Source: a virus. From it: DNA of 24,866 bases. The notes beneath the pieces are model-generated. The model did not search any database, was not told the DNA's origin, and was given only the letters and a program-made list of their open reading frames with translations. The stretch covers positions 1 to 24,866 of the IMG/VR virus record IMGVR_UViG_3300007236_000054. One strand, given 5' to 3'. Positions 1 through 24,823 of this stretch are shown in pieces; position 1 is the first letter of the stretch; every line of letters begins with the position of its first letter. The translations under genes were made by a program, and so were the position numbers.

Positions 1-203
1 ATTGGAAAATAAAATTTTCGACCAGGTACAGCAACAGCTATACCAACGACTTCACCTAAACCAATAACAGCACCTGATCCTCTTGTTTTTAATTCTGGAT
101 CTCTTGTCTCTAAGTCAATTGCAATCTCATCGTAAGATCTTAGATCTGGGTATTCTTCTGGTTCAATCCACTCTGTTTGTGCTTCAAATCTTGGTATGAT
201 CAT
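1..203 (-). CDS. Family A DNA polymerase, N-terminal fragment (runs off window edge)
   Basis: Only the first 67 codons are in the window; the gene continues past base 1. They contain IAIDLETRDP with D30 and E32, the DxE of exonuclease motif I in the 3'-5' proofreading domain of PolA/T7-type polymerases, followed by GLGEVVGIAVAVPG and an aromatic KFYFP stretch typical of the second strand of that fold. The likely role is replicative phage DNA polymerase. The ATG at 203-201 is the only good start and lies inside the end of the methyltransferase gene, giving a 20-nt overlap and suggesting translational coupling. No strong Shine-Dalgarno is visible before it (only AAGAAAG). The polymerase domain is outside the window, so a stand-alone DnaQ-like exonuclease is not strictly excluded, but the position at the end of a primase-helicase operon favours the polymerase. 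Confidence 0.75.
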   Translation of the reverse strand, partial: MIIPRFEAQTEWIEPEEYPDLRSYDEIAIDLETRDPELKTRGSGAVIGLGEVVGIAVAVPGRKFYFP

Positions 204-1623
204 ATAAAACTTTCTTTATTGCTAATCCTATTTCTCTTGCTATTTGAGGAACTATTGCGTTACCTAAAGTTTTTATTCTGTTTGCTCTGTCTTTGTCCAA
301 TCCATAGGAAATCCCATTAGGAACTCCACAAACGTTGGATTCAATTTGCCACCAGGTTTGTTTTTGTCCATCCGTATTATGTCCCCAATTATCGACGATC
401 TGTTCTTTTGACTGATCGGAAACGTTACATTCTTCCCGTCGTTCGTCGTCGGACTGTAATACATCTCTTTCTCCAGATATAACATCGCGTCTGATAGTTT
501 TGCTCCGAATGTCGACTCGGGTTTGTTCTTCTTCCTCAGAATAAAACCTCCAGACTTTGTCCTCTCCACTCTCTCCGATTGTTCTCCACCCTCTTCGCAT
601 CCCACTGTTGGTGTTGGAAACATCTTCACTGCTGCTGTTAGATTGTGTTGAGCTGCTGCTTTGATTCCTTTCCTCTTGATCAATGTTTCTGGATTCTCCT
701 GTCCCGATGATCTCGGTGTTGGATACATTCTCTTCTCTTCCTCTTCCTTCTGCACTGCGTGACGAAGTGCGAACTGAAGATTGATTCCCTTCTCCTCTTT
801 CTTTTGTTTTGCTCTCTTCTTCCAAGCTTCTAATGTTTCCGATTGATTTGCTAGATGATCTGATCTCTGTGGTGTTGGATACATCCTTTTCTCTTGATCT
901 GCTGCTATTCGTTGACCTAAACTGTGTCCCCGAGTCTTGCCCACTGAAGGTGGTACTTTGTTTACTGAGTCCTTCCAATCCCTTGCGTTCGGTGTTGGAT
1001 ACATCTTCATCGTTTCTGAATCCACTTGTTCTCTCAGATTGGATGGTTTGGTTCTGCCCTTCCTGTGTCCCTGCTGTAGTTTCAGTGTTCCTTCTTTCGA
1101 TCTTGGAGGTAAGTAATCCATTGTGTTCGGAGTGGCCCACAATCCAGACTCTGTACCTTTGGTGCCAAGCACCGATGCCTGAAGCTGGAATAAGGAAACA
1201 TTGGACTTCGAAACCTTCACTTTCCAAGTCGTCTTGCACCTGTCTGAGTACCATGCCGTTTTGGATGTTAATAATTCCTTGCACATTCTCCCCAATAACG
1301 AATTGGGGTTTGATTTGTTTAATGAGTCTAAACATTTCTGGCCAGAGATAGCGGTCGTCATCTGTTCCTTTTCTTTTACCTGCGACTGACATTGGTTGGC
1401 AGGGGAACCCTCCCACAACGACATCTGCGTCTCCTTCTTTTCCTTCGACATTTTTTATATCCTCCTCTATTGGTATGTTAGGAAAGTTCTTTTGTAGAAC
1501 TCTCTTGCAATATTTATCTTTTTCAACAAATTTTACAGTCTCAAATATTCCTGTAGAGTCTAAGCCTAATGCAAAGCCACCTATACCAGAAAATAAATCA
1601 AGAACTTTTAATTTTTTATTCAC
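184..1623 (-). CDS. dcm: DNA (cytosine-5) methyltransferase with a long low-complexity insert
   Basis: Transfers a methyl group from S-adenosylmethionine to C5 of cytosine in DNA; in phages this usually protects against host restriction. Motif I is VLDLFSGIGGF (8-17), motif IV GGFPCQP with nucleophile C75, motif VI ENV (112-114), motif VIII QRYRVW (155-160), and motif X RIKTLGNAIVPQ near 449-460. Between VIII and X, where the target recognition domain normally sits, about 260 residues are low-complexity Ser/Thr/Asn/Arg/Glu with VSNT repeated near 208, 248, 300 and 334. The start is GTG at 1623, in a GTGA overlap with the DUF3310 gene stop. The 3' end overlaps the polymerase start by 20 nt. 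Most of the gene (273-1451) is also open in the +1 frame, see the embedded gene. GC is higher than in the neighbours: bases 961-1020 have 26/60 G+C against 15/60 in 1981-2040. Whether it is active and what it recognises cannot be read here. Confidence 0.9.
   Translation of the reverse strand: MNKKLKVLDLFSGIGGFALGLDSTGIFETVKFVEKDKYCKRVLQKNFPNIPIEEDIKNVEGKEGDADVVVGGFPCQPMSVAGKRKGTDDDRYLWPEMFRLIKQIKPQFVIGENVQGIINIQNGMVLRQVQDDLESEGFEVQCFLIPASGIGAWHQRYRVWIVGHSEHNGLLTSKIERRNTETTAGTQEGQNQTIQSERTSGFRNDEDVSNTERKGLEGLSKQSTTFSGQDSGTQFRSTNSSRSREKDVSNTTEIRSSSKSIGNIRSLEEESKTKERGEGNQSSVRTSSRSAEGRGREENVSNTEIIGTGESRNIDQEERNQSSSSTQSNSSSEDVSNTNSGMRRGWRTIGESGEDKVWRFYSEEEEQTRVDIRSKTIRRDVISGERDVLQSDDERREECNVSDQSKEQIVDNWGHNTDGQKQTWWQIESNVCGVPNGISYGLDKDRANRIKTLGNAIVPQIAREIGLAIKKVLYDHTKI
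273..1451 (-). CDS. Embedded overlapping gene inside the methyltransferase (+1 frame), [MYWF]xTP-repeat protein
   Basis: A 392-codon frame lies wholly inside the methyltransferase gene on the same strand, shifted +1. Support for expression: AGGAGG at 1466-1461, 9 nt before the ATG at 1451, and no stop for 392 codons in an AT-rich genome. The product shows LWATP (104-108), MYPTP (150-154, 190-194, 242-246), MFPTP (278-282) and MYYSP (330-334), each followed by a polar 30-50 residue segment, then LNPTFVEFLMGFPMDWT (370-386). The N-terminal part includes MSLWEGSPA (10-18) and a Trp/Cys-containing segment (67-76). From memory, uncharacterised phage proteins with repeated L/M-aromatic-PTP and a terminal LNPxFVExLMGxP block are common, and some are encoded in this same way over cytosine methyltransferases; I could not verify this. 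No catalytic motif is recognised, so no function is assigned. A conserved artefact of methyltransferase coding remains possible. Confidence 0.6.
   Translation of the reverse strand: MSKEKKETQMSLWEGSPANQCQSQVKEKEQMTTAISGQKCLDSLNKSNPNSLLGRMCKELLTSKTAWYSDRCKTTWKVKVSKSNVSLFQLQASVLGTKGTESGLWATPNTMDYLPPRSKEGTLKLQQGHRKGRTKPSNLREQVDSETMKMYPTPNARDWKDSVNKVPPSVGKTRGHSLGQRIAADQEKRMYPTPQRSDHLANQSETLEAWKKRAKQKKEEKGINLQFALRHAVQKEEEEKRMYPTPRSSGQENPETLIKRKGIKAAAQHNLTAAVKMFPTPTVGCEEGGEQSERVERTKSGGFILRKKNKPESTFGAKLSDAMLYLEKEMYYSPTTNDGKNVTFPISQKNRSSIIGDIIRMDKNKPGGKLNPTFVEFLMGFPMDWTKTEQTE
610..1005 (-). repeat. Dispersed 15-bp repeat within the dual-coding region
   Basis: The plus-strand word GGTGTTGGATACATC occurs exactly at 871-885 and 991-1005, with one change at 715-729 (last base) and one at 610-624 (GGAAACATC). 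Degenerate relatives lie near 451-464 and 1121-1140. On the coding strand the same word reads DVSNT in the methyltransferase frame and MYPTP in the embedded frame. Spacing is irregular (about 105-160 bp), so this is a coding repeat and not a CRISPR array. Confidence 0.7.
1461..1466 (-). promoter_or_regulatory. Shine-Dalgarno of the embedded gene
   Basis: Perfect AGGAGG on the minus strand, nine bases (ATATAAAAA) before the ATG at 1451. In the methyltransferase frame it falls within the codons for IEEDIKN. It is one of the strongest ribosome binding sites in the window, stronger than that of the surrounding GTG-started methyltransferase, and it decides the start of the embedded frame. Confidence 0.6.
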
Positions 1624-1880: not shown

Positions 1881-3310
1881 AAATAATAACCATACCTTTC
1901 TATTTTTGCTCTCATCAAGTATAAATTTCTTTTGCTACGTGTTACTCCCACATACCATACTCTATGTTCTTCATCTCTTTTTTTACTACTTTTTACCACA
2001 GCTTCTCTTATTTTTCTAGCATTATCTAATAACAACAAAACATTCTCTGATTCACCACCTTTTGCTGCATGAATCGTAGATATTTTTATTCTGGGTTCTT
2101 CATTTAAATTTTCTTTATTTGAAAGTAATAATCTTATATAATTCTTTTCTTCATTATTAGCTTTATCAAAAGCCTCATACCAAGGTAACAATTCATTCCA
2201 ATTATTATCTAACATATAATCTTCAACATCATCTACCTGTGTAGAATCTAGTTCTTGTCCTTCAGACCATCTTGAATAATAAACAGCTGCTTTATATAAT
2301 TTTGAATTAAAACTTTTGATATATTTGTTTTCAAAATATAAACCTTTAAGTCTAAGTTCTTTTGCAATCTTAATAGATTTATCAATTGTTCTAGTAAGTA
2401 TTAACCAGTTATCTTTATAGAGATCTACATTATCTATATTATTAATTGTTATGCAGTTTCCCTCTTCATTTTTTGGATGATAATCTTTAATTGCTCGTAA
2501 GCCTTCTATTCTACTTACAATAATATTAGATATATCTTGAACTTTTATTGGCACCCTTCTTGATTTTTTTAAAACTACTTCTGTTGCAGGTTCTTGTATA
2601 AATCTATCTACATCCGCTCCTGCCCAAGCGTAGATTGCTTGATCATCATCTCCCGCAAGGTACATATCTTTTGTATTTGATTTTAAAATATCAAACATTT
2701 GCCATTGTATTGGAGATAGATCTTGAGCTTCATCAATAAATACTACATCAAATTGAGGACATAAATGTTTCTTTTGTATGAACTGATGAATCATATCTGT
2801 AAAATCTATTAAGGTATTATTTTTTTTGTATTTTAAATAATTAAGTGCAACATGTTTTAATATGTTAGGTCTTATATCTTTACCATATTCACCGGTACAA
2901 TATTCATCCCAAACTTCTATGTCTTTTTCTCTAGCCTTGGTTATAATTTGAAAGTATTCATTGTCACAAGTTAGATAAGGTGAAGAGTCTAGATCTCTTT
3001 TTGCTTTTACACTAATGCTTAATATTTTACCTAAATCATCATAATGATAATCTTGCATAACATTTTCTTCTTTTAAACCTAATGTATGAAAAGCTAATGA
3101 ATGCAGTGTTTGAAAATATTTTAAATCTTTTTTTTGAAACTGTTTATTTTTATTTAACATTCTTTCTTTAGCTTCAATAGCTGCCTTTTTAGTAAAAGCA
3201 AAGTACCCTATTCTTTCTATTGGTGTGCCTATTCTAATATAAGCTAATGCTCTCCTAATTAATTTTTCTGTTTTACCTGTACCTGGAGGACCGTAAAATT
3301 TTTTTATCAT
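1877..3310 (-). CDS. UvrD/Rep-like superfamily 1A DNA helicase
   Basis: ATP-dependent single-strand DNA translocase/helicase, probably working with the primase and polymerase of this operon. Visible motifs in order: Walker A GPPGTGKT (7-14), motif Ia region GYFAFTKKAAIEAKER (35-50), Walker B VVFIDEAQDLSPIQW (189-203), motif III AGDDDQAIYAWAGAD (219-233), motif IV KKSRRVPIKV (248-257), motif V STIHAAKGGESENVLLL (near 413-429), and motif VI VWYVGVTRSKRNLYLM (near 455-470). At 477 residues it is much shorter than bacterial UvrD (about 720), so the 1B/2B subdomains must be reduced, as in many phage versions. The ATG at 3310 overlaps the primase stop as ATGA. All catalytic motifs look intact. Confidence 0.93.
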   Translation of the reverse strand: MIKKFYGPPGTGKTEKLIRRALAYIRIGTPIERIGYFAFTKKAAIEAKERMLNKNKQFQKKDLKYFQTLHSLAFHTLGLKEENVMQDYHYDDLGKILSISVKAKRDLDSSPYLTCDNEYFQIITKAREKDIEVWDEYCTGEYGKDIRPNILKHVALNYLKYKKNNTLIDFTDMIHQFIQKKHLCPQFDVVFIDEAQDLSPIQWQMFDILKSNTKDMYLAGDDDQAIYAWAGADVDRFIQEPATEVVLKKSRRVPIKVQDISNIIVSRIEGLRAIKDYHPKNEEGNCITINNIDNVDLYKDNWLILTRTIDKSIKIAKELRLKGLYFENKYIKSFNSKLYKAAVYYSRWSEGQELDSTQVDDVEDYMLDNNWNELLPWYEAFDKANNEEKNYIRLLLSNKENLNEEPRIKISTIHAAKGGESENVLLLLDNARKIREAVVKSSKKRDEEHRVWYVGVTRSKRNLYLMRAKIERYGYYL

Positions 3311-4941
3311 AGAATATTATCTTTTTCTTGCATTGGCATTTCTTCTGCATCCTCTTCTTCTCTTTCAAAGAAAGTCATAGGAATTTTTACACAACGAATT
3401 GGATTGTGTGATTTTTTATCTGTATCTTTTTTAGGATATCTTTTTAAATGACCTAACTCTGATTTAAATTCTTCTATTAACATTCTACCAGTCTTTTCAA
3501 ATTTCATTTTCCATTCTTTATTTTTTAAATAATTAAAAAAAACATCCATAGTAAAATATGCAAATCCATCTTCTTTTAAAATAGATCCACTACCAAATGA
3601 AGTTGCACTTACTGCAGGTACACCATTAATATGTTCTTCTAAATATTTATGTAACAATTCTTTAGGAGAAGTACCTAAAGGTGGTGGTTGTACTGTCTCT
3701 GTTTCTTTTAAATTTTCTATAATAGTTTGAAACTCATCTTGTTTTATTCTTGGTGGAGCAATAGGTGTATGTGCACCAATCAGTCTTCTACATTTTTCCA
3801 TGTCCATTAAATAATTTATGTCTCTAGCTACAACTTGTTTACTCATTTCCCCATCTTGTTTATCGTTAAAATTTACAGTAAATCTAAATTCTGGTTCAGG
3901 TTGATAATCTATTCTAATTAAAGCGGACAGCTGCGGAAACTTCTTTTGTTTATCTGACATATAACCAAATTGTCTTTTTGCACATTCAGATTTAATACAA
4001 AAATTTCTTATTGGATCTTGATCACATAAATGTCCTGCAGTTGGTTTACGCCAAGATTTTATTTTATCTAATACTTTTTTATCTCCCCACTCTTCATCAT
4101 ATAAAATATATTTTCTTGCACCTTCTAAAACTCTTTTTTCCCAAAGATCTGGGTATTTCTTTTTACAAAACACCATGTAATTAAATAAGAATCTATCTCT
4201 TTCATCGGGTAGTTTGTTACTATCATCTATTGTTTTTGATATTGCTTGCAAACATGGTGGACCATCTGCAAATTCTTCTGCACCACCTGTAAGAATTTTA
4301 CTAATGTGTGCATCAATAAATTCATTTAATTCTTTTTCTGTTTTTAAATTAGCATCAACAACTTTGATATATTGATCAAAAGTAAATTCTGTGCCATCTA
4401 AATTTAATGCAACTCGTTCATTTTTATTATAGTATGGTAGGTTAATAAAATTACCATTTGTAAAACTACCATCTGGTCCTGTTCCAAGTTCCGTTTGCTT
4501 TGGATATATTTCTGTTGTTGGATTTAATTCTAATGTATATAATAGTTTGTCTAAAAAATTTCTTAAAAAACTAGCTTTGACTTTTTCTTTTGTATGAATG
4601 TATAAATGAAGTCCGCCACTTTTTGATTTAACTGGTATGACAGGTAAATTATTCTTTTCTATAATCTCTAAATATTTTCTTGGACTAAAATCTTGATAAG
4701 CTTTGGAGTCTATATCAATTGCACCAAAACTAACAAAACCATTGTCATCACAAGGCTGTATGCCAATAGATTTCTCACCCTTAAGATGTTGTAGATAATC
4801 CGTTGATGTTAGTTGTTTACCTGCCCAACCGTGTTTTACTTTAAACTTACCTGTTGTTGAATCTTTGTAACCATTACTAACTTCTGCGTATCCATAATCT
4901 CTTTTTAAACCGTCAAATATCTGTACAAATTTCTGTTCCAT
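3307..4941 (-). CDS. Archaeo-eukaryotic-type (AEP, TOTE-like) DNA primase/primase-polymerase
   Basis: Likely makes primers for phage replication. The N-terminal AEP catalytic fold shows motif I FGAIDID (72-78, acids D76 and D78), motif II KSKSGGLHLYIH (105-116, H112) and EIYPKQ (144-149) followed by NGNFINLPYYNK; this order resembles the primase domain of the TOTE group. A downstream region has GPPCLQ (C230) and later LCDQDPIRNFCIKSEC (C306, C315, C320), four cysteines that could bind zinc or an iron-sulfur cluster as in PriL/PriCT-like regions (inference). The C-terminal ~200 residues end in an acidic tail with no helicase motif. I use the ATG at 4941; the frame is open upstream to a TTG at 4986, which would add a basic, Trp-rich 15-residue leader (WKREWKR) and is less convincing. 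Neither start has an obvious Shine-Dalgarno. The stop overlaps the helicase ATG (ATGA). Confidence 0.82.
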   Translation of the reverse strand: MEQKFVQIFDGLKRDYGYAEVSNGYKDSTTGKFKVKHGWAGKQLTSTDYLQHLKGEKSIGIQPCDDNGFVSFGAIDIDSKAYQDFSPRKYLEIIEKNNLPVIPVKSKSGGLHLYIHTKEKVKASFLRNFLDKLLYTLELNPTTEIYPKQTELGTGPDGSFTNGNFINLPYYNKNERVALNLDGTEFTFDQYIKVVDANLKTEKELNEFIDAHISKILTGGAEEFADGPPCLQAISKTIDDSNKLPDERDRFLFNYMVFCKKKYPDLWEKRVLEGARKYILYDEEWGDKKVLDKIKSWRKPTAGHLCDQDPIRNFCIKSECAKRQFGYMSDKQKKFPQLSALIRIDYQPEPEFRFTVNFNDKQDGEMSKQVVARDINYLMDMEKCRRLIGAHTPIAPPRIKQDEFQTIIENLKETETVQPPPLGTSPKELLHKYLEEHINGVPAVSATSFGSGSILKEDGFAYFTMDVFFNYLKNKEWKMKFEKTGRMLIEEFKSELGHLKRYPKKDTDKKSHNPIRCVKIPMTFFEREEEDAEEMPMQEKDNIL

Positions 4942-4954
4942 GCGAATTTTTGAT

Positions 4955-4982
4955 GGGCGCTTCCACTCTCGCTTCCACGCCC
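4955..4982. repeat. GC-rich tandem 9-mer with a short inverted end in the pre-primase gap
   Basis: The 57-base gap between the primase ATG (4941) and the preceding stop (4999) contains the plus-strand 9-mer CGCTTCCAC twice (4958-4966 and 4970-4978, 12-nt period). Outside it GGGCG (4955-4959) and CGCCC (4978-4982) could pair as a 5-bp stem. It stands out because flanking DNA is strongly AT-rich. It might be a leader structure, a protein-binding site or part of the primase coding region if the TTG at 4986 is used; nothing decides between them. Confidence 0.5.
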
Positions 4983-4998
4983 ACAACCTAGGATTCTA

Positions 4999-21000: not shown

Positions 21001-21648
21001 CTATTTTACAAATGATGGTAGACCTAACATAGGTCTTCCGTCAAATCTGTTTTTATCAGCAAATGGGCCGTTTACATGATTATAATGTAGAAATACTTGG
21101 CCACAAATGTTCCCGTCAAAAGGCTCTCGCCAATGTTCGAGTTCACAGCCACTATATACTAACATATCACCTACTTCAAGCAAGACTTTTGTGCCTTTGG
21201 GTGCGTTGGGCTTATGTATGTTTTTATACTCGTCTATGACGCTGTCAGCCCCCGTACCGTCGATAAATATAGGCCAAGGATCTCCACCTAAGTTTAGAGT
21301 CGTAGATATTTCACAACTAGGTCTATCTTTATGTCTTCGTAGTTCATCACCTTTTTTATATGCTCTAGCGTAAGAGTAAGTAGGTATTAGATCTAGTCCT
21401 GTATGTTGTTTCATTACAGGCAACATCTTAACTAGTAATGTATCCATTACAAAGTCACCATAACAAGAATAAGTATTAGGTATCTGTTGATCAGTCCATG
21501 TTCCAAGGATCGGGGACTGTGAATGTATGTTATTTTCATACATAAATCTTGTTGCATCTCTTTTAAGTAAAAAATAGTTAAGTATAAAATTAGCCATGTC
21601 GTAAGACAAAGCTTTCTTAATTACTTGATATTTGTGATCTCTAAACAT
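21001..21648 (-). CDS. 2OG-Fe(II) oxygenase 1 (HxD...H)
   Basis: 215 residues with the double-stranded beta-helix signature of 2-oxoglutarate/Fe(II) oxygenases: GDELRRHKDRP gives H106 and D108, the following SCEISTTLNLGGDPWPIF strand, and the distal histidine in GCELEHWREPF (H172), then QVFLHYN. These enzymes hydroxylate protein, lipid or small-molecule substrates using 2-oxoglutarate and O2. No clear C-terminal Arg/Lys for 2OG binding about 10 residues after the distal His is visible, which is the usual position, so cofactor binding is less sure. It overlaps oxygenase 2 by 8 bases and is the last gene of the cassette, 17 bases before the connector gene. Substrate unknown. Confidence 0.8.
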   Translation of the reverse strand: MFRDHKYQVIKKALSYDMANFILNYFLLKRDATRFMYENNIHSQSPILGTWTDQQIPNTYSCYGDFVMDTLLVKMLPVMKQHTGLDLIPTYSYARAYKKGDELRRHKDRPSCEISTTLNLGGDPWPIFIDGTGADSVIDEYKNIHKPNAPKGTKVLLEVGDMLVYSGCELEHWREPFDGNICGQVFLHYNHVNGPFADKNRFDGRPMLGLPSFVK

Positions 21649-22228
21649 TAAACCCTTTCTGTAAAAAATTAAACGATACTGATATTCTTATTTCATTACT
21701 TAAGTTTGGTTCAACACAATGCCAAAGCCATGCTGGAAATATAACTATTCTACCTTCTAATGGATCTACACGAACCTCTCTCCATAGATGTGAAGGTGGT
21801 TCTCCTTCTTTTCTTCTTGGCATAACCATATGTGCCGATGCTCTTGGTTCGTTAAATACTATTTGTCCAGAATTTTTAGGTGCCTTAATATAATACACAC
21901 CACTAAAATGAGAGTTAGGATGTAAGTGTGGTCGGTTATATCCACCTGGTGGATTGATGTTGGCCCACATATTTCCAATAACAGGTTCACTATCTAACCA
22001 TTCTTCTTGAAATACTTCACTTTGCATTTTAAATAATTCATCAACTAATGGTTTGAACACTGGTATTTGATGCATATTAGTTTGACTATGCCAACCATTC
22101 ATATTAGTTCGTTTGATTCCTTTATCTTTATCAGCCCAAGCAAGAACTTCTTTTTCAAAAAGTCTGTTGTCTAGATTAACATCTTTAGCATATATAATAG
22201 TTGGAAAGTATGCAGCTTTAATCATCAT
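21641..22228 (-). CDS. 2OG-Fe(II) oxygenase-like protein 2 (TIGR02466-like, HxH ligands)
   Basis: 195 residues. RPHLHPNSHFSGVYYIKAP (99-117; H101, H103) and GRIVIFPAWLWHCVEPN (159-175; distal H170) followed by RISVSFNF (R181) match the uncharacterised putative 2OG-Fe(II) oxygenase family TIGR02466. There the first pair reads HxH where classic enzymes have HxD, so the metal site differs and activity is unproven. The start could be either of two adjacent ATGs (22228 or 22225); the first overlaps the previous stop as ATGA. Probably cytoplasmic, substrate unknown. Confidence 0.78.
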   Translation of the reverse strand: MMIKAAYFPTIIYAKDVNLDNRLFEKEVLAWADKDKGIKRTNMNGWHSQTNMHQIPVFKPLVDELFKMQSEVFQEEWLDSEPVIGNMWANINPPGGYNRPHLHPNSHFSGVYYIKAPKNSGQIVFNEPRASAHMVMPRRKEGEPPSHLWREVRVDPLEGRIVIFPAWLWHCVEPNLSNEIRISVSFNFLQKGFNV

Positions 22229-22809
22229 TTAAAAGGTGTCCCTCCAAACCACATAACCAAAGATTTTCTGTTGCCACGTATTACAGGTTTAACTCTGTGT
22301 CTAATAAATGATGCAAAGAACACAGCATGTCCTTGTTTTATTTTTGCAACTTTACCCTCAGCCATTAATTCTAAATCACCACCTTCAAATTCATTCTCTG
22401 GTGATAATAAACAAGTCATAGATATTTTTCTTACAGGTGGTTCGTGTTGCATGTTCACATCATTATCTACATGCCAGTCATAGAATCCTCCTTCTGGATA
22501 TTCTGTGTATTGTGCCATTTCAGTTATTGTCATTCCGTCAAAACCAAAATGATTACCGTTTGTGGTTTTCATAATACGTTCAATGTCTTTATACATGTCC
22601 GCCATTTTTTTAAATGGTATCCAACTAATGTGTGAGGTTCTAGTTTTAGTATCTACGACTCCACCTTTAATACCTTTATTACTTCCAACACTCGCATCAT
22701 TTCTAGGTTCCGCACGTCCAGCTTGAATAATCATTTTACATTGTTCTGGTGTAAATATTGGTTGTGTAGTTTCAACTATAAAAGATCGCCATCGTGGTTC
22801 TGTTATCAT
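22225..22809 (-). CDS. 2OG-Fe(II) oxygenase 3 (PiuC/PKHD hydroxylase-like)
   Basis: 194 residues with the most complete classic signature of the set: GGFYDWHVDND (107-117; H113, D115), MTCLLSPENEFEGGDLEL (131-148), FFASFIRHRVKPV (164-176; distal H171) and R181 for 2-oxoglutarate. The layout matches PKHD-type prolyl-4-hydroxylase-like proteins such as PiuC. Expected reaction: hydroxylation coupled to oxidative decarboxylation of 2-oxoglutarate; the target is unknown. ATGA overlap with oxygenase 2 and a one-base gap from oxygenase 4 show tight coupling. Confidence 0.87.
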   Translation of the reverse strand: MITEPRWRSFIVETTQPIFTPEQCKMIIQAGRAEPRNDASVGSNKGIKGGVVDTKTRTSHISWIPFKKMADMYKDIERIMKTTNGNHFGFDGMTITEMAQYTEYPEGGFYDWHVDNDVNMQHEPPVRKISMTCLLSPENEFEGGDLELMAEGKVAKIKQGHAVFFASFIRHRVKPVIRGNRKSLVMWFGGTPFK

Positions 22810-22810
22810 A

Positions 22811-23389
22811 TTAATATCCGTATTCTACCCATCCCGTTATTATATATTTGTCATTTGATAGAGGAGGGTTGCCTCTATGAACGTGTGTAAACTGTGCAGG
22901 CCAAACTAACATAGTATTTTTTTCAGGTTTAAATCTACATTTTTGATATAAAAATTCTGTTTCTCCACCTTCAGTCACATCATTAAGATAAACACTAAAA
23001 GCTAGTATTCTATTTCTAGCTTTCATCTCTGCATTTTCACAATGCCACATATGATAACCTTCACCTACTTTAGTTTTTTGAATTTTTACTTCTAATATAT
23101 TATGTGTAGCTAATTTTTTTAGGTAGGAATATTTTTGTACATACAGAGGGTATACATCTTTAAAAAACATATCTATAAAAGGTTTGTTATTATAAGTCAT
23201 TGGAACATTGGTATCTCTAATAGTATCTATTGAATTATCAGATACTAACGTTTCATCTACTTGCCTTGGATACACTGCACCTTGTTCTTCACACTTATTA
23301 AAATAATTTGTATAATCATCTATCAATTGATTTGGCATAAAGTTTTTAAATAAACCAATGTGGTTATCTATGTAATATTGTTTGTCCAT
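22811..23389 (-). CDS. 2OG-Fe(II) oxygenase-like protein 4 (HxE variant)
   Basis: 192 residues. GEGYHMWHCENAEM (109-122) gives H116 and E118, so the carboxylate ligand is glutamate, not the usual aspartate. ILAFSVYLNDVTEGGETEFL (128-147) and MLVWPAQFTHVHRGNPP (160-176; distal H169 or H171) then KYIITGW (K181) complete a prolyl-4-hydroxylase-like fold. From memory, some marine phage relatives also carry HxE, so this may be a family trait rather than a loss. TAATG coupling to oxygenase 5 at 23389. Substrate unknown. Confidence 0.8.
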   Translation of the reverse strand: MDKQYYIDNHIGLFKNFMPNQLIDDYTNYFNKCEEQGAVYPRQVDETLVSDNSIDTIRDTNVPMTYNNKPFIDMFFKDVYPLYVQKYSYLKKLATHNILEVKIQKTKVGEGYHMWHCENAEMKARNRILAFSVYLNDVTEGGETEFLYQKCRFKPEKNTMLVWPAQFTHVHRGNPPLSNDKYIITGWVEYGY

Positions 23390-24048
23390 TACACTGCACC
23401 TCTATTTCTAATCGGATCAAAATCTACATCACAGTTTGCAGCTAGTGTTCGTCTAGTCTCATCAGTTCCATTAAAAGGATATACACAGTGTCTCATATCA
23501 TATGGAAATATATAAAAGTCTCTAAGGTCCATTGGTGGCTGATAATCTATCTTAGCAAACTGACCATTAGCTGCTCCTAATATTTGTAGTCTACCATTCT
23601 GTTGTATATGTCCTGCTGAGTATTCTTTACCATAGGTTGATGGTAGTTTTAAAATCATAACAGAAGATAAACCAGTAAATAACATACCTCTATGAATGTG
23701 TGCAGGATTATATTCGTGTTGTTTCATTTCATTAACCCAAATAGAATTTAAATGAGTTTTGTAATCTCTAATTTTATTAAATGCTAGATAGTGTTTAAAT
23801 ATAGTCATAAAATAATCTGTTACATTTGTAGGCAACATATTATGGTTTTTCATTTTAGATTGGTCTTGACCATGATAAAACAAAGAATGTTCATTTTCTA
23901 TCTTACCCACTAACTGACCATTGGCAGGTGCAAGGTTATGAAAATTTTGTTCGTAGATTTGGTTAATCGTAGTAAATATATCAAGCGGTACTTGATACTT
24001 TAAAACAGACTGACCTAAAAATACAAAATCAAATTTTAATGTGTCCAT
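23389..24048 (-). CDS. 2OG-Fe(II) oxygenase-like protein 5 (HxH ligands)
   Basis: 219 residues from the ATG at 24048. NPAHIHRGMLFTGLSSVMIL (114-133; H117, H119) and DFYIFPYDMRHCVYPFNG (177-194; distal H187) then ETRRTLAANCDVDFDP (R199/R200) form the beta-helix core of putative phage 2OG-Fe(II) oxygenases with an HxH pair. The frame is open further upstream to a TTG at 24141, but that would put 31 extra residues inside the sulfotransferase gene with no Shine-Dalgarno, so the ATG is preferred; it still overlaps the sulfotransferase end by 20 bases. The N-terminal ~100 residues are less typical and may hold substrate specificity. Confidence 0.75.
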   Translation of the reverse strand: MDTLKFDFVFLGQSVLKYQVPLDIFTTINQIYEQNFHNLAPANGQLVGKIENEHSLFYHGQDQSKMKNHNMLPTNVTDYFMTIFKHYLAFNKIRDYKTHLNSIWVNEMKQHEYNPAHIHRGMLFTGLSSVMILKLPSTYGKEYSAGHIQQNGRLQILGAANGQFAKIDYQPPMDLRDFYIFPYDMRHCVYPFNGTDETRRTLAANCDVDFDPIRNRGAV

Positions 24049-24823
24049 ATTTCTGTCTAATCCTTTCTGGAATCTTTTCAATGTAAGGGTTATATACTTT
24101 TCTAACAGGTCCATCAAATATTTTATGCATATTATTACCAACTATTCTATCATCATAGGACAGACCATTTATGTTTACTTGATCTAAATTATTAAATCGA
24201 TGGTTAAAGTAAGGCGCATCAATAAAATTATAAATTTTTTTAAACTCTTGTTCAGGATTAGTAACTATATCATCATATCTTACATAGTGACAAATATTAG
24301 AATAATTATATGAATTTTTAATTGCTTTTAAATTTTTTACAATTGCGCCGTCTTTATGCATAAGCATTAATAATTTTTCCTCATCATTTTTACAGCCATA
24401 TTTATTTGGAAACGCACTTAAATTTTCTGTATACCATTTCATATAACTAGCTAATACGTCCATTAAATCTCTAAGTAGAATGATACATTTAAAACCAGGT
24501 TTAAAATGTTTTTGCATTAGTTCAAAGTTTCCAGGATTACCGCTTACCATTATGGGTCCACGATCTATAATTATTCGTTGAGGCCAATCTTTGTAATATA
24601 AATTAAATATGTTATCTAATACATTATCTAAAGATTTATGGTCTGGATAATTTTGAAACGTATCTGTTTGTTTAAGTAAAAACAATTCTTTTAATATTTC
24701 TAGTGTAATAGAATTAGCCGTTGTTGCTATTTCAGGATTTTGATTCATAATACTTGCAAATAAAGTATTTCCAGATCTAGGTAGTGCAACTAAAAAAAAT
24801 AACTTACGGTTTTGGTTTACCAT
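24029..24823 (-). CDS. Sulfotransferase family protein (PAPS-dependent)
   Basis: 264 residues. The 5'-phosphosulfate loop is LVALPRSGNTLFASIMNQNP (11-30), matching the family's (S/P)RSGT/N-T pattern, and the 3'-phosphate-binding region is CIILLRDLMDVLASYMKW (113-130; R118, S126). A later HYVRYDDIVTNPEQEFKKIY fits the family's Y-(E/D)-D-L-V-x-x-P segment. The enzyme should move a sulfuryl group from PAPS to a hydroxyl or amine on a protein, glycan or small molecule. It is the first complete gene of the oxygenase cassette. A hydroxylase-made OH could be the acceptor (inference). It starts at ATG 24823 inside the end of an upstream partial frame. Confidence 0.85.
   Translation of the reverse strand: MVNQNRKLFFLVALPRSGNTLFASIMNQNPEIATTANSITLEILKELFLLKQTDTFQNYPDHKSLDNVLDNIFNLYYKDWPQRIIIDRGPIMVSGNPGNFELMQKHFKPGFKCIILLRDLMDVLASYMKWYTENLSAFPNKYGCKNDEEKLLMLMHKDGAIVKNLKAIKNSYNYSNICHYVRYDDIVTNPEQEFKKIYNFIDAPYFNHRFNNLDQVNINGLSYDDRIVGNNMHKIFDGPVRKVYNPYIEKIPERIRQKYGHIKI

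Follow-up and report, generated by a model that had tools for sequence, protein, structure and literature searches.

A nested reading frame in viral C5-cytosine methyltransferase genes and its probable role as a modular target-recognition subunit

Can one stretch of viral DNA encode both parts of a DNA methyltransferase, in two frames of the same strand? The question is raised by the IMG/VR virus record IMGVR_UViG_3300007236_000054, of which positions 1 to 24,866 (24,866 nucleotides (nt), the whole stretch analysed, hereafter the window) carry an open reading frame (ORF) for a C5-cytosine methyltransferase, which we call alpha. A second ORF, beta, starts 172 nt into alpha on the same strand and runs in its +1 frame (Table 1). 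Claims of long overlapping genes on one strand of prokaryotic DNA often meet with doubt; in this case fused relatives, selection in each frame and conserved initiation signals offer tests, and the overlap is found again in 190 distinct loci. By computation, the hidden gene is real. As to its product, we think it likely that the two frames encode a two-chain C5-methyltransferase in which alpha is the catalytic chain, with motifs I-VIII and X, and beta is the subunit for target recognition and motif IX. A target-recognition subunit was one role suggested in the original prediction on this DNA, made from the letters alone; the fused relatives described below now make it the best-supported reading, and the resemblance to M.EcoHK31I, the shuffled module array and the breadth of occurrence go beyond that prediction.

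Two reading frames in one gene

Alpha matches the methyltransferase family PF00145 (E = 5e-50) and phrog_363 (E = 8e-70), and the C5-methyltransferase hallmark motifs I, IV (with the catalytic PCQ), VI, VIII and X were located in it. Inspection of alpha's own frame by eye showed neither a motif IX nor a target-recognition domain. Between motifs VIII and X this frame is, by eye, a low-complexity stretch rich in S, E, R and N, much as the original prediction had described it. The 392-codon ORF that the prediction placed there is confirmed, and chance does not account for its length. Under three null models, which preserve the methyltransferase protein or its codons, none of 10,000 recodings each (0/30,000) reached 392 open +1 codons: the longest open stretch averaged 85 codons (maximum 233) after synonymous shuffling, 72 (maximum 222) after shuffling of codon order and 61 (maximum 170) when synonymous codons were redrawn from the usage of 10 other window genes. 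A stop every 15-20 codons had been expected of a random frame, which is about right for the third frame beneath alpha (31 stops in 480 codons).

The +1 frame is also open in relatives. Four scans with beta-containing queries gave 190 distinct nested loci, counts that are silent on the share of C5-methyltransferases without beta; in 187 of them no stop interrupts the +1 frame between motif IV and the C-terminal motif-IX-like block of beta, and in the remaining three (L076, L077, L324) the open stretch begins 9, 9 and 49 codons late. None of the 190 has an open third frame, the median being 14 stops. Because the queries of these scans contained beta, a scan with alpha as the query was added, which returned 80 loci, all close relatives (70 distinct, 9 duplicates and one without a motif IV match). 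The +1 frame proved open from motif IV to the IX-like block, motif X or the contig end in 69 of the 70 distinct loci, the sole exception (L414) having a stop 2 codons before the end; the third frame was open in none (median 21 stops). The IX-like block is visible in 53 of the 70, many others being cut by the contig end. Methyltransferase genes that keep the insert and carry stops in the +1 frame, which would have spoken against a nested gene, are thus not what these relatives look like.

Selection was compared frame by frame in 22 independent pairs as differences per site at alpha codon positions 1, 2 and 3, of which position 1 is where the nested frame has its wobble base. Pairs were picked for being similar in the nested region; absolute rates in that region are lowered by this choice, and the contrast between positions is unaffected. 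At the N-terminus of alpha, outside the overlap, the values are.079/.040/.198, with position 3 exceeding position 1 in 16/22 pairs (3 ties, 3 contrary), and at the C-terminus beyond the nested stop they are.068/.037/.256 (20/22 pairs, 2 ties). Over motifs IV-VIII, where the frames overlap, they are.039/.015/.073, position 3 still being the more variable in 17/22 pairs (5 ties); the third-position difference of 0.073 compares with 0.198 and 0.256 in the non-overlapping ends. The order reverses in the module region that follows (.229/.110/.085, position 1 above position 3 in 22/22 pairs) and in the IX-like block (.137/.049/.060; 16/22 pairs, 4 ties, 2 contrary), a reversal seen in the all-pairs version as well as in the independent pairs. 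These contrasts mark out successive regimes along one gene: alpha only, both frames, beta, and alpha again.

Amino-acid identities agree with these regimes. From motif VIII to X, identity is 0.861 in the beta frame vs 0.727 in the alpha frame and higher for beta in 22/22 pairs, so the claim that the embedded frame is the better conserved one in the middle region holds. In the IV-VIII overlap alpha leads (.958 vs.915 for beta), as expected of the catalytic core. The further proposal that the methyltransferase insert is largely a by-product of the embedded frame is borne out by the module region, where position 1 is the most variable and position 3 the least, the reverse of the non-overlapping ends; purifying selection is accordingly not confined to the methyltransferase frame.

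A signal for separate initiation lies within alpha codons just upstream of the nested ATG. Among 69 relatives with a visible start, a Shine-Dalgarno core of 6 nt was found in 56, of 5 nt in 2, of 4 nt in 7 and none in 4, counts that are inflated by taking, for each relative, the early in-frame start with the best core and that are uncorrected for kinship. Glutamate codons of the alpha frame are GAG in 97/115 cases at the Shine-Dalgarno site vs 78/175 upstream. Together with the selection on both frames, this internal signal suggests that the two proteins are co-produced from one locus, as had been proposed.

Table 1. Features of the methyltransferase locus, in window positions.
Feature	Position	Strand	Remark
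Alpha, C5-cytosine methyltransferase ORF	184..1623	-	479 codons, predicted GTG start; motifs I-VIII and X
Beta, nested ORF	273..1451	-	392 codons and stop, ATG start; +1 frame of alpha
Shine-Dalgarno GAGGAGG	1461..1467	-	9 nt upstream of the nested ATG, within alpha codons
Beta N-terminal part, residues 1-103	1143..1451	-	over alpha motifs IV-VIII; dual coding
Module 1 (LWATP...), candidate target-recognition module	1005..1142	-	head position, module typing
Module 2 (MYPTPNARDWKD...)	885..1004	-	module cutting, head position
Module 3 (MYPTPQRSDHLAN...)	729..884	-	module cutting, typing, head position
Module 4 (MYPTPRSSGQEN...)	624..728	-	module cutting, typing, head position
Module 5 (MFPTPTVGCEEGG...)	465..623	-	module cutting, typing, head position
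Module 6 (MYYSPTTNDGKN...)	354..464	-	module cutting, head position
Motif-IX-like block GGKLNPTFVEFLMGFPMDWT, beta frame	294..353	-	beta residues 367-386
Alpha motif I (DLFSGIGGFALG)	1564..1599	-	assigned by eye
Alpha motif IV, catalytic PCQ (VGGFPCQPMSVAG)	1378..1416	-	
Alpha motif VI (VIGENVQGI)	1273..1299	-	assigned by eye
Alpha motif VIII (QRYRVWIVGH)	1132..1161	-	assigned by eye; its end overlapped by the start of beta module 1
Alpha motif X (LGNAIVPQIA)	238..267	-	assigned by eye; directly downstream of the beta stop

Module arrays and single-chain relatives

Every repeat named in the original prediction was located in beta (LWATP at residue 104, MYPTP at 150, 190 and 242, MFPTP at 277 and MYYSP at 330), as was the C-terminal block. 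Each repeat heads a module, and comparable arrays of one to seven modules occur across the family: cutting 141 distinct betas by the head pattern, which places some boundaries wrongly and merges a few modules, yielded 508 modules with a median of 38 residues (quartiles 33-46). At 60% identity these fall into 153 types, 41 of which have at least 3 members and cover 378 modules. All but three of the 41 common types (38/41) have at least two different left neighbours, the array start counting as one, and 122 distinct arrays occur among the 141 betas. Of the first viral scan's pairs whose first 95 residues are at least 85% identical, which are not independent of one another, 194 differ in their arrays and 6 agree. 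Certain module types are common to viral contigs and bacterial genomes. The modules thus appear to be cassettes of about 40 residues that are shuffled by phages and bacteria.

The arrays also contain few or no repeated types. No beta carries the same type twice at 60% identity (0/141), while permutation over all slots gives a mean of 21.0 betas with repeats (minimum 11) and permutation within first, middle and last slots a mean of 13.4 (minimum 4). At 45% identity 3/141 betas repeat a type, and at 40% identity 6/141 do, vs 27.2 (all slots) and 18.3 (within slots) expected. The missing repeats would fit cassettes that each add a different target; recombination that removes duplicates could be another cause.

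What the modules may do is indicated by rare relatives in which they belong to the methyltransferase chain itself. The frames of motif IV, the IX-like block and motif X were assigned by regular expressions in the 320 loci of the four scans; after exclusion of 29 duplicates and of 90 loci in which no motif triple was recognised, whether because the contig is truncated, the motifs have diverged or the enzyme is a different one, the 201 classified distinct loci comprise 190 nested, 4 AquI-like, 3 fused and 4 broken. The nested layout with motif X in alpha is hence the majority form. In the fused loci, one from a Pelosinus metagenome-assembled genome (L142) and two viral (L168, L169), motifs I-VIII, at least one (W)PTP module, an LxPDWVECLM block and motif X follow one another in a single frame, and L168 and L169 have 4 stops each in the +1 frame beneath the module and block region. 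In the AquI-like loci (L139, L171, L176, L238) alpha ends after motif VIII and beta carries the modules, the block and motif X. Profile searches link the forms as well: window beta matches phrog_1008 ('DNA methyltransferase', PHROGs v4; E = 5.8e-29), which also matches two Paenibacillus betas, one from a phage (E = 2e-74) and one from a genome (E = 5e-43), and the half of the fused protein P0003 that runs from the modules to motif X (E = 7e-25). The phrog_1008 label is, in contrast, silent on nesting, a subunit role and modularity. Since the rare single-chain relatives carry the same modules and the IX-like block, a target-recognition subunit is the role best supported for beta. The three layouts suggest an evolutionary series from fused, through split with partial overlap, to fully nested, the order of which is our inference.

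Six loci (L024, L025, L048, L049, L052, L058) have a nested frame that extends some 126-132 codons beyond the alpha stop (FYRTPT or MYRTPT...), as if beta were fused with the next gene. One assembly of Desulforhopalus singaporensis has relatives on four contigs, two of which (L126, L127) share frame coordinates and lengths and two (L128, L129) frame lengths, which suggests two repeated versions of the gene.

The nested protein as a probable subunit, and the alternatives

In C5-methyltransferases the region between motifs VIII and IX holds target recognition. The multispecific enzymes of Bacillus phages SPR, phi3T, rho11 and H2 are single chains, read in one frame, in which serial target-recognition domains (TRDs) stand between motifs VIII and IX and can be mixed and matched. 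Phage-borne serial modules in that interval are the likeness to the present family; the difference is that the array here forms a separate nested +1 chain, and that multispecificity here is putative. The layout itself has a closer counterpart in M.EcoHK31I (YGGCCR), whose small chain is read from an alternative frame within the large-chain gene, M.EaeI being alike, just as beta is nested in alpha. According to PMC3404938, the larger polypeptide of M.EcoHK31I holds motifs I-VIII and X, as alpha does for the motifs checked here (I, IV, VI, VIII and X), and the smaller one motif IX; its predicted TRD lies in the large chain, whereas here the module array is in the small one, and the available part of PMC3404938 describes no interchangeable module array. 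M.AquI (CYCGRG) is likewise split after motif VIII, with a distal variable region and motifs IX-X on the smaller chain (PMC3404938), unlike the window, where motif X is in alpha. Our literature search found no description of a nested modular family, subscription papers being mostly outside its coverage; the layout resembles a known one, and the broad, modular, shuffled family is, as far as these searches show, new.

The fused relatives, the known split enzymes and the place of target recognition between motifs VIII and IX identify beta as the probable small domain of a two-chain enzyme. Alpha would be the large catalytic domain, with S-adenosylmethionine binding, the catalytic PCQ and motif X, and the contribution of beta would be motif IX, preceded by an N-terminal part and six target-recognition modules, each about 35-53 residues long. 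Translation of alpha would start at the predicted GTG at 1623 and that of beta at the internal ATG at 1451 behind its own GAGGAGG; in the assembled enzyme, beta would recognise the DNA target, and alpha would flip out the cytosine and methylate it. The only demand on the alpha frame from motif VIII to X would be to remain stop-free, and this stretch is probably a disordered loop. Modular arrays that sit between motifs VIII and IX are reasonable candidates for target-recognition regions, and the block is a putative motif IX by its position and by the fused relatives, its sequence match being weak alone.

Several observations weigh against this reading. No Pfam or NCBIfam model matches beta at an E cut-off of 1, and a beta profile finds no match in the PDB at E 10; the profile search proposed in the original prediction thus returned phrog_1008 and nothing from Pfam, NCBIfam or the PDB. 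In the local profile alignment with canonical motif IX (a profile of just 5 sequences), the block, which is rightly placed for the motif IX that M.EcoHK31I carries on its small chain, aligns over 9 columns in the expected register with a probability of 0.8, which is non-significant; the fused C-terminus reaches a probability of 14 through motif X only, and global alignments give 0.1-0.2. The structure prediction likewise proposed was unsuccessful for beta alone: the AlphaFold model (34 sequences) is not folded, with a mean predicted local distance difference test score (pLDDT) of 48.9 and a predicted template-modelling score of 0.20. Fused L168, modelled from a 50-row alignment, has a well-folded large domain and C-terminus, and its module and block region mostly falls below pLDDT 50. 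On the supporting side, with low-confidence stretches excluded, residues 1-352 of this model align with residues 13-325 of M.HhaI (Z 24.0, root-mean-square deviation 2.6, 210 aligned). As the module region is poorly modelled, what Foldseek and VIA-align match to M.HhaI is mostly the large domain and motif X, and a profile of the fused alignment aligned with PDB chains through its N-terminal part alone. The comparison with M.EcoHK31I was made by description. Under the catalytic part of fused L142 there is still a shorter +1 frame that holds one module, so that misassembly or a frameshifted copy could account for this locus. Finally, in the three actinophage genes ShiLan gp70 (L248, Mycobacterium phage), CheeseTouch gp88 (L249, Gordonia phage) and prophiT46-2 gp23 (L250), the N-terminal part and some modules are nested in +1 while the motif-IX-like block and motif X remain in the alpha frame, so the division of labour between the chains varies.

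Two side observations concern these last genes. ShiLan gp70 and prophiT46-2 gp23 have further modules in the alpha frame too, and in phage Jarcob (L251) the same gene is annotated as two coding sequences (CDS), gp69 and gp70, which are AquI-like by eye.

If beta is translated and selected, it could be an accessory protein (a regulator, chaperone or anti-restriction factor) and not the recognition and motif IX half. The lack of a recognised fold, of canonical-IX similarity and of a solved-structure match for beta alone would be in keeping with this, and the PF00145 match of alpha extends over the whole profile (columns 1-323 of 324), a range that is uninformative on whether the motif IX columns are matched; the phmmer alignment of alpha with M.HhaI is limited to alpha residues 5-162. 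An accessory protein is nonetheless improbable, given that in the three fused relatives a single polypeptide has these modules and the block between its motifs VIII and X, that inspection of alpha by eye shows no other motif IX, and that phrog_1008 has among its matches both nested betas and the half of P0003 running from the modules to motif X. Less probable still is a single chain made by a change of frame near motif VIII, comprising motifs I-VIII, the modules and motif IX, with beta never separately initiated. One-frame fused relatives show that such a chain is workable, but a second shift would be required to add motif X, and the conserved internal Shine-Dalgarno and start would be left unexplained, as would the 103 beta residues before the modules, which are under dual constraint.

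The remaining alternatives have next to no chance. Low-complexity alpha sequence can leave other frames open, but an embedded frame that is merely a by-product of alpha's composition is contradicted by the failed recodings, by 69/70 open relatives vs none in the third frame, by its higher conservation in 22/22 pairs and by the CDS that some Paenibacillus phage annotators have placed there. A homing element with a hidden out-of-frame endonuclease has a published precedent in the ShiLan methylase, for which PMC11855218 describes an inserted HNH endonuclease encoded in another frame and a patchy distribution, likewise a second frame hidden within a phage methylase gene; here, however, neither an HNH nor any other nuclease domain of Pfam or NCBIfam matches beta at E 1, the nested frame begins upstream of the modules inside the part coding for motifs IV-VIII, and it is open in 69/70 alpha-fetched relatives and not scattered. 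As we interpret it, this frame would encode the enzyme's own recognition half.

Occurrence, annotation and genomic setting

All 80 viral loci fetched with the beta protein have beta in the +1 frame of a methyltransferase. The single exception among 88 sequences examined is an annotated marine phage (L002, KT997847.1); its methyltransferase N-terminus is in a different frame from the C-terminus and its nested ORF is open, which points to a frameshift either of the phage itself or of its record. In a later viral scan, 600 stretches gave at least 519 relatives. Bacterial genomes, searched by profile with patterns taken from the motif-IX-like block and a query alignment that included two wrong-frame rows (L004, L075), gave 283 relatives among 477 candidate stretches; of the 80 bacterial loci kept, which come from many phyla as recorded, 77 overlap a methyltransferase frame in +1, a count of any such overlap above 300 nt that includes the AquI-like L139 and some truncated alphas. 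Among 50,697 phage records, window beta matches 54 and a Paenibacillus phage beta 71, both searches being limited by similarity. The beta profile matches 4/299 genomes of one bacterial phylum, the one to which the Paenibacillus genome of L090 belongs, this genome being among the 4. Beta is widespread, yet not common in that one phylum.

Annotation treats the locus unevenly. Some Paenibacillus larvae phage records annotate both overlapping CDS, and that of phage DevRi does so with the remark 'Not called by any program'. In a comparison of such phages, a table has DNA-cytosine methyltransferase genes and the gene scoring penalises overlaps (PMC6070908). Phage-collection records from Klebsiella, Bacteroides, Bordetella and Acinetobacter annotate the methyltransferase alone, with 289-379 open codons in the +1 frame beneath it. 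Of 5,426 Escherichia coli genomes, 66 contain relatives of the Klebsiella gene, at least 80% of which is covered in 15, and two of these loci, both chromosomal, were looked at. In L257 (1492-2520) the RefSeq gene lies over an unannotated 311-codon +1 frame with (W)PTP modules that ends with LNPAHARWLMGLP and 12 further residues; in L256 an unannotated 343-codon +1 frame, also with (W)PTP modules, underlies a gene flagged as two incomplete pseudogene pieces.

In the window, the methyltransferase is closely followed by a gene that the window edge truncates; the start of this gene (MIIPRFEAQTEW...DEIAIDLETRDPELK) is probably that of a DNA polymerase exonuclease. The other flank holds a DUF3310 protein, a UvrD-like helicase and a TOTE-type primase domain; the primase-like ORF (3307-4986) is a match for PF22548 (E = 6.5e-14), which represents the archaeo-eukaryotic primase domain found in TOTE conflict systems. 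No restriction nuclease domain was found among the 9 window proteins tested, and for this reason the methyltransferase looks like an orphan, protective enzyme; the SNF2-type helicase of the window gave a weak match to a ResIII helicase domain. Farther away are a 2-oxoglutarate-Fe(II) oxygenase (22811-23389) and a sulfotransferase (24029-24823), and three adjacent ORFs (21001-22809) are oxygenase-like by eye; 21001-21648 was tested and has no Pfam match.

We lean slightly towards a broader view of the family, as a widespread class of C5-methyltransferases, present here in viral contigs, phages and bacterial genomes, whose specificity resides in shuffled, non-redundant cassettes of about 40 residues in a nested frame, each locus encoding an anti-restriction enzyme that is multispecific, with one target for every cassette. 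A nested array would keep the catalytic and recognition subunits co-inherited while cassette exchange rearranges specificity. By exchanging modules with one another and with their hosts, phages could retune or widen the set of sites they methylate, most likely in the service of escape from host restriction. Many annotated 'DNA cytosine methyltransferase' genes would then be half their enzyme, so that cloning alpha alone could yield a false negative; annotation often lists the alpha frame alone, and, if this reading is true, much specificity has been overlooked. Should the modules be target-recognition cassettes, the 153 types among 508 modules would amount to a catalogue of interchangeable DNA readers, which would be decodable against methylomes and could predict phage escape from restriction.

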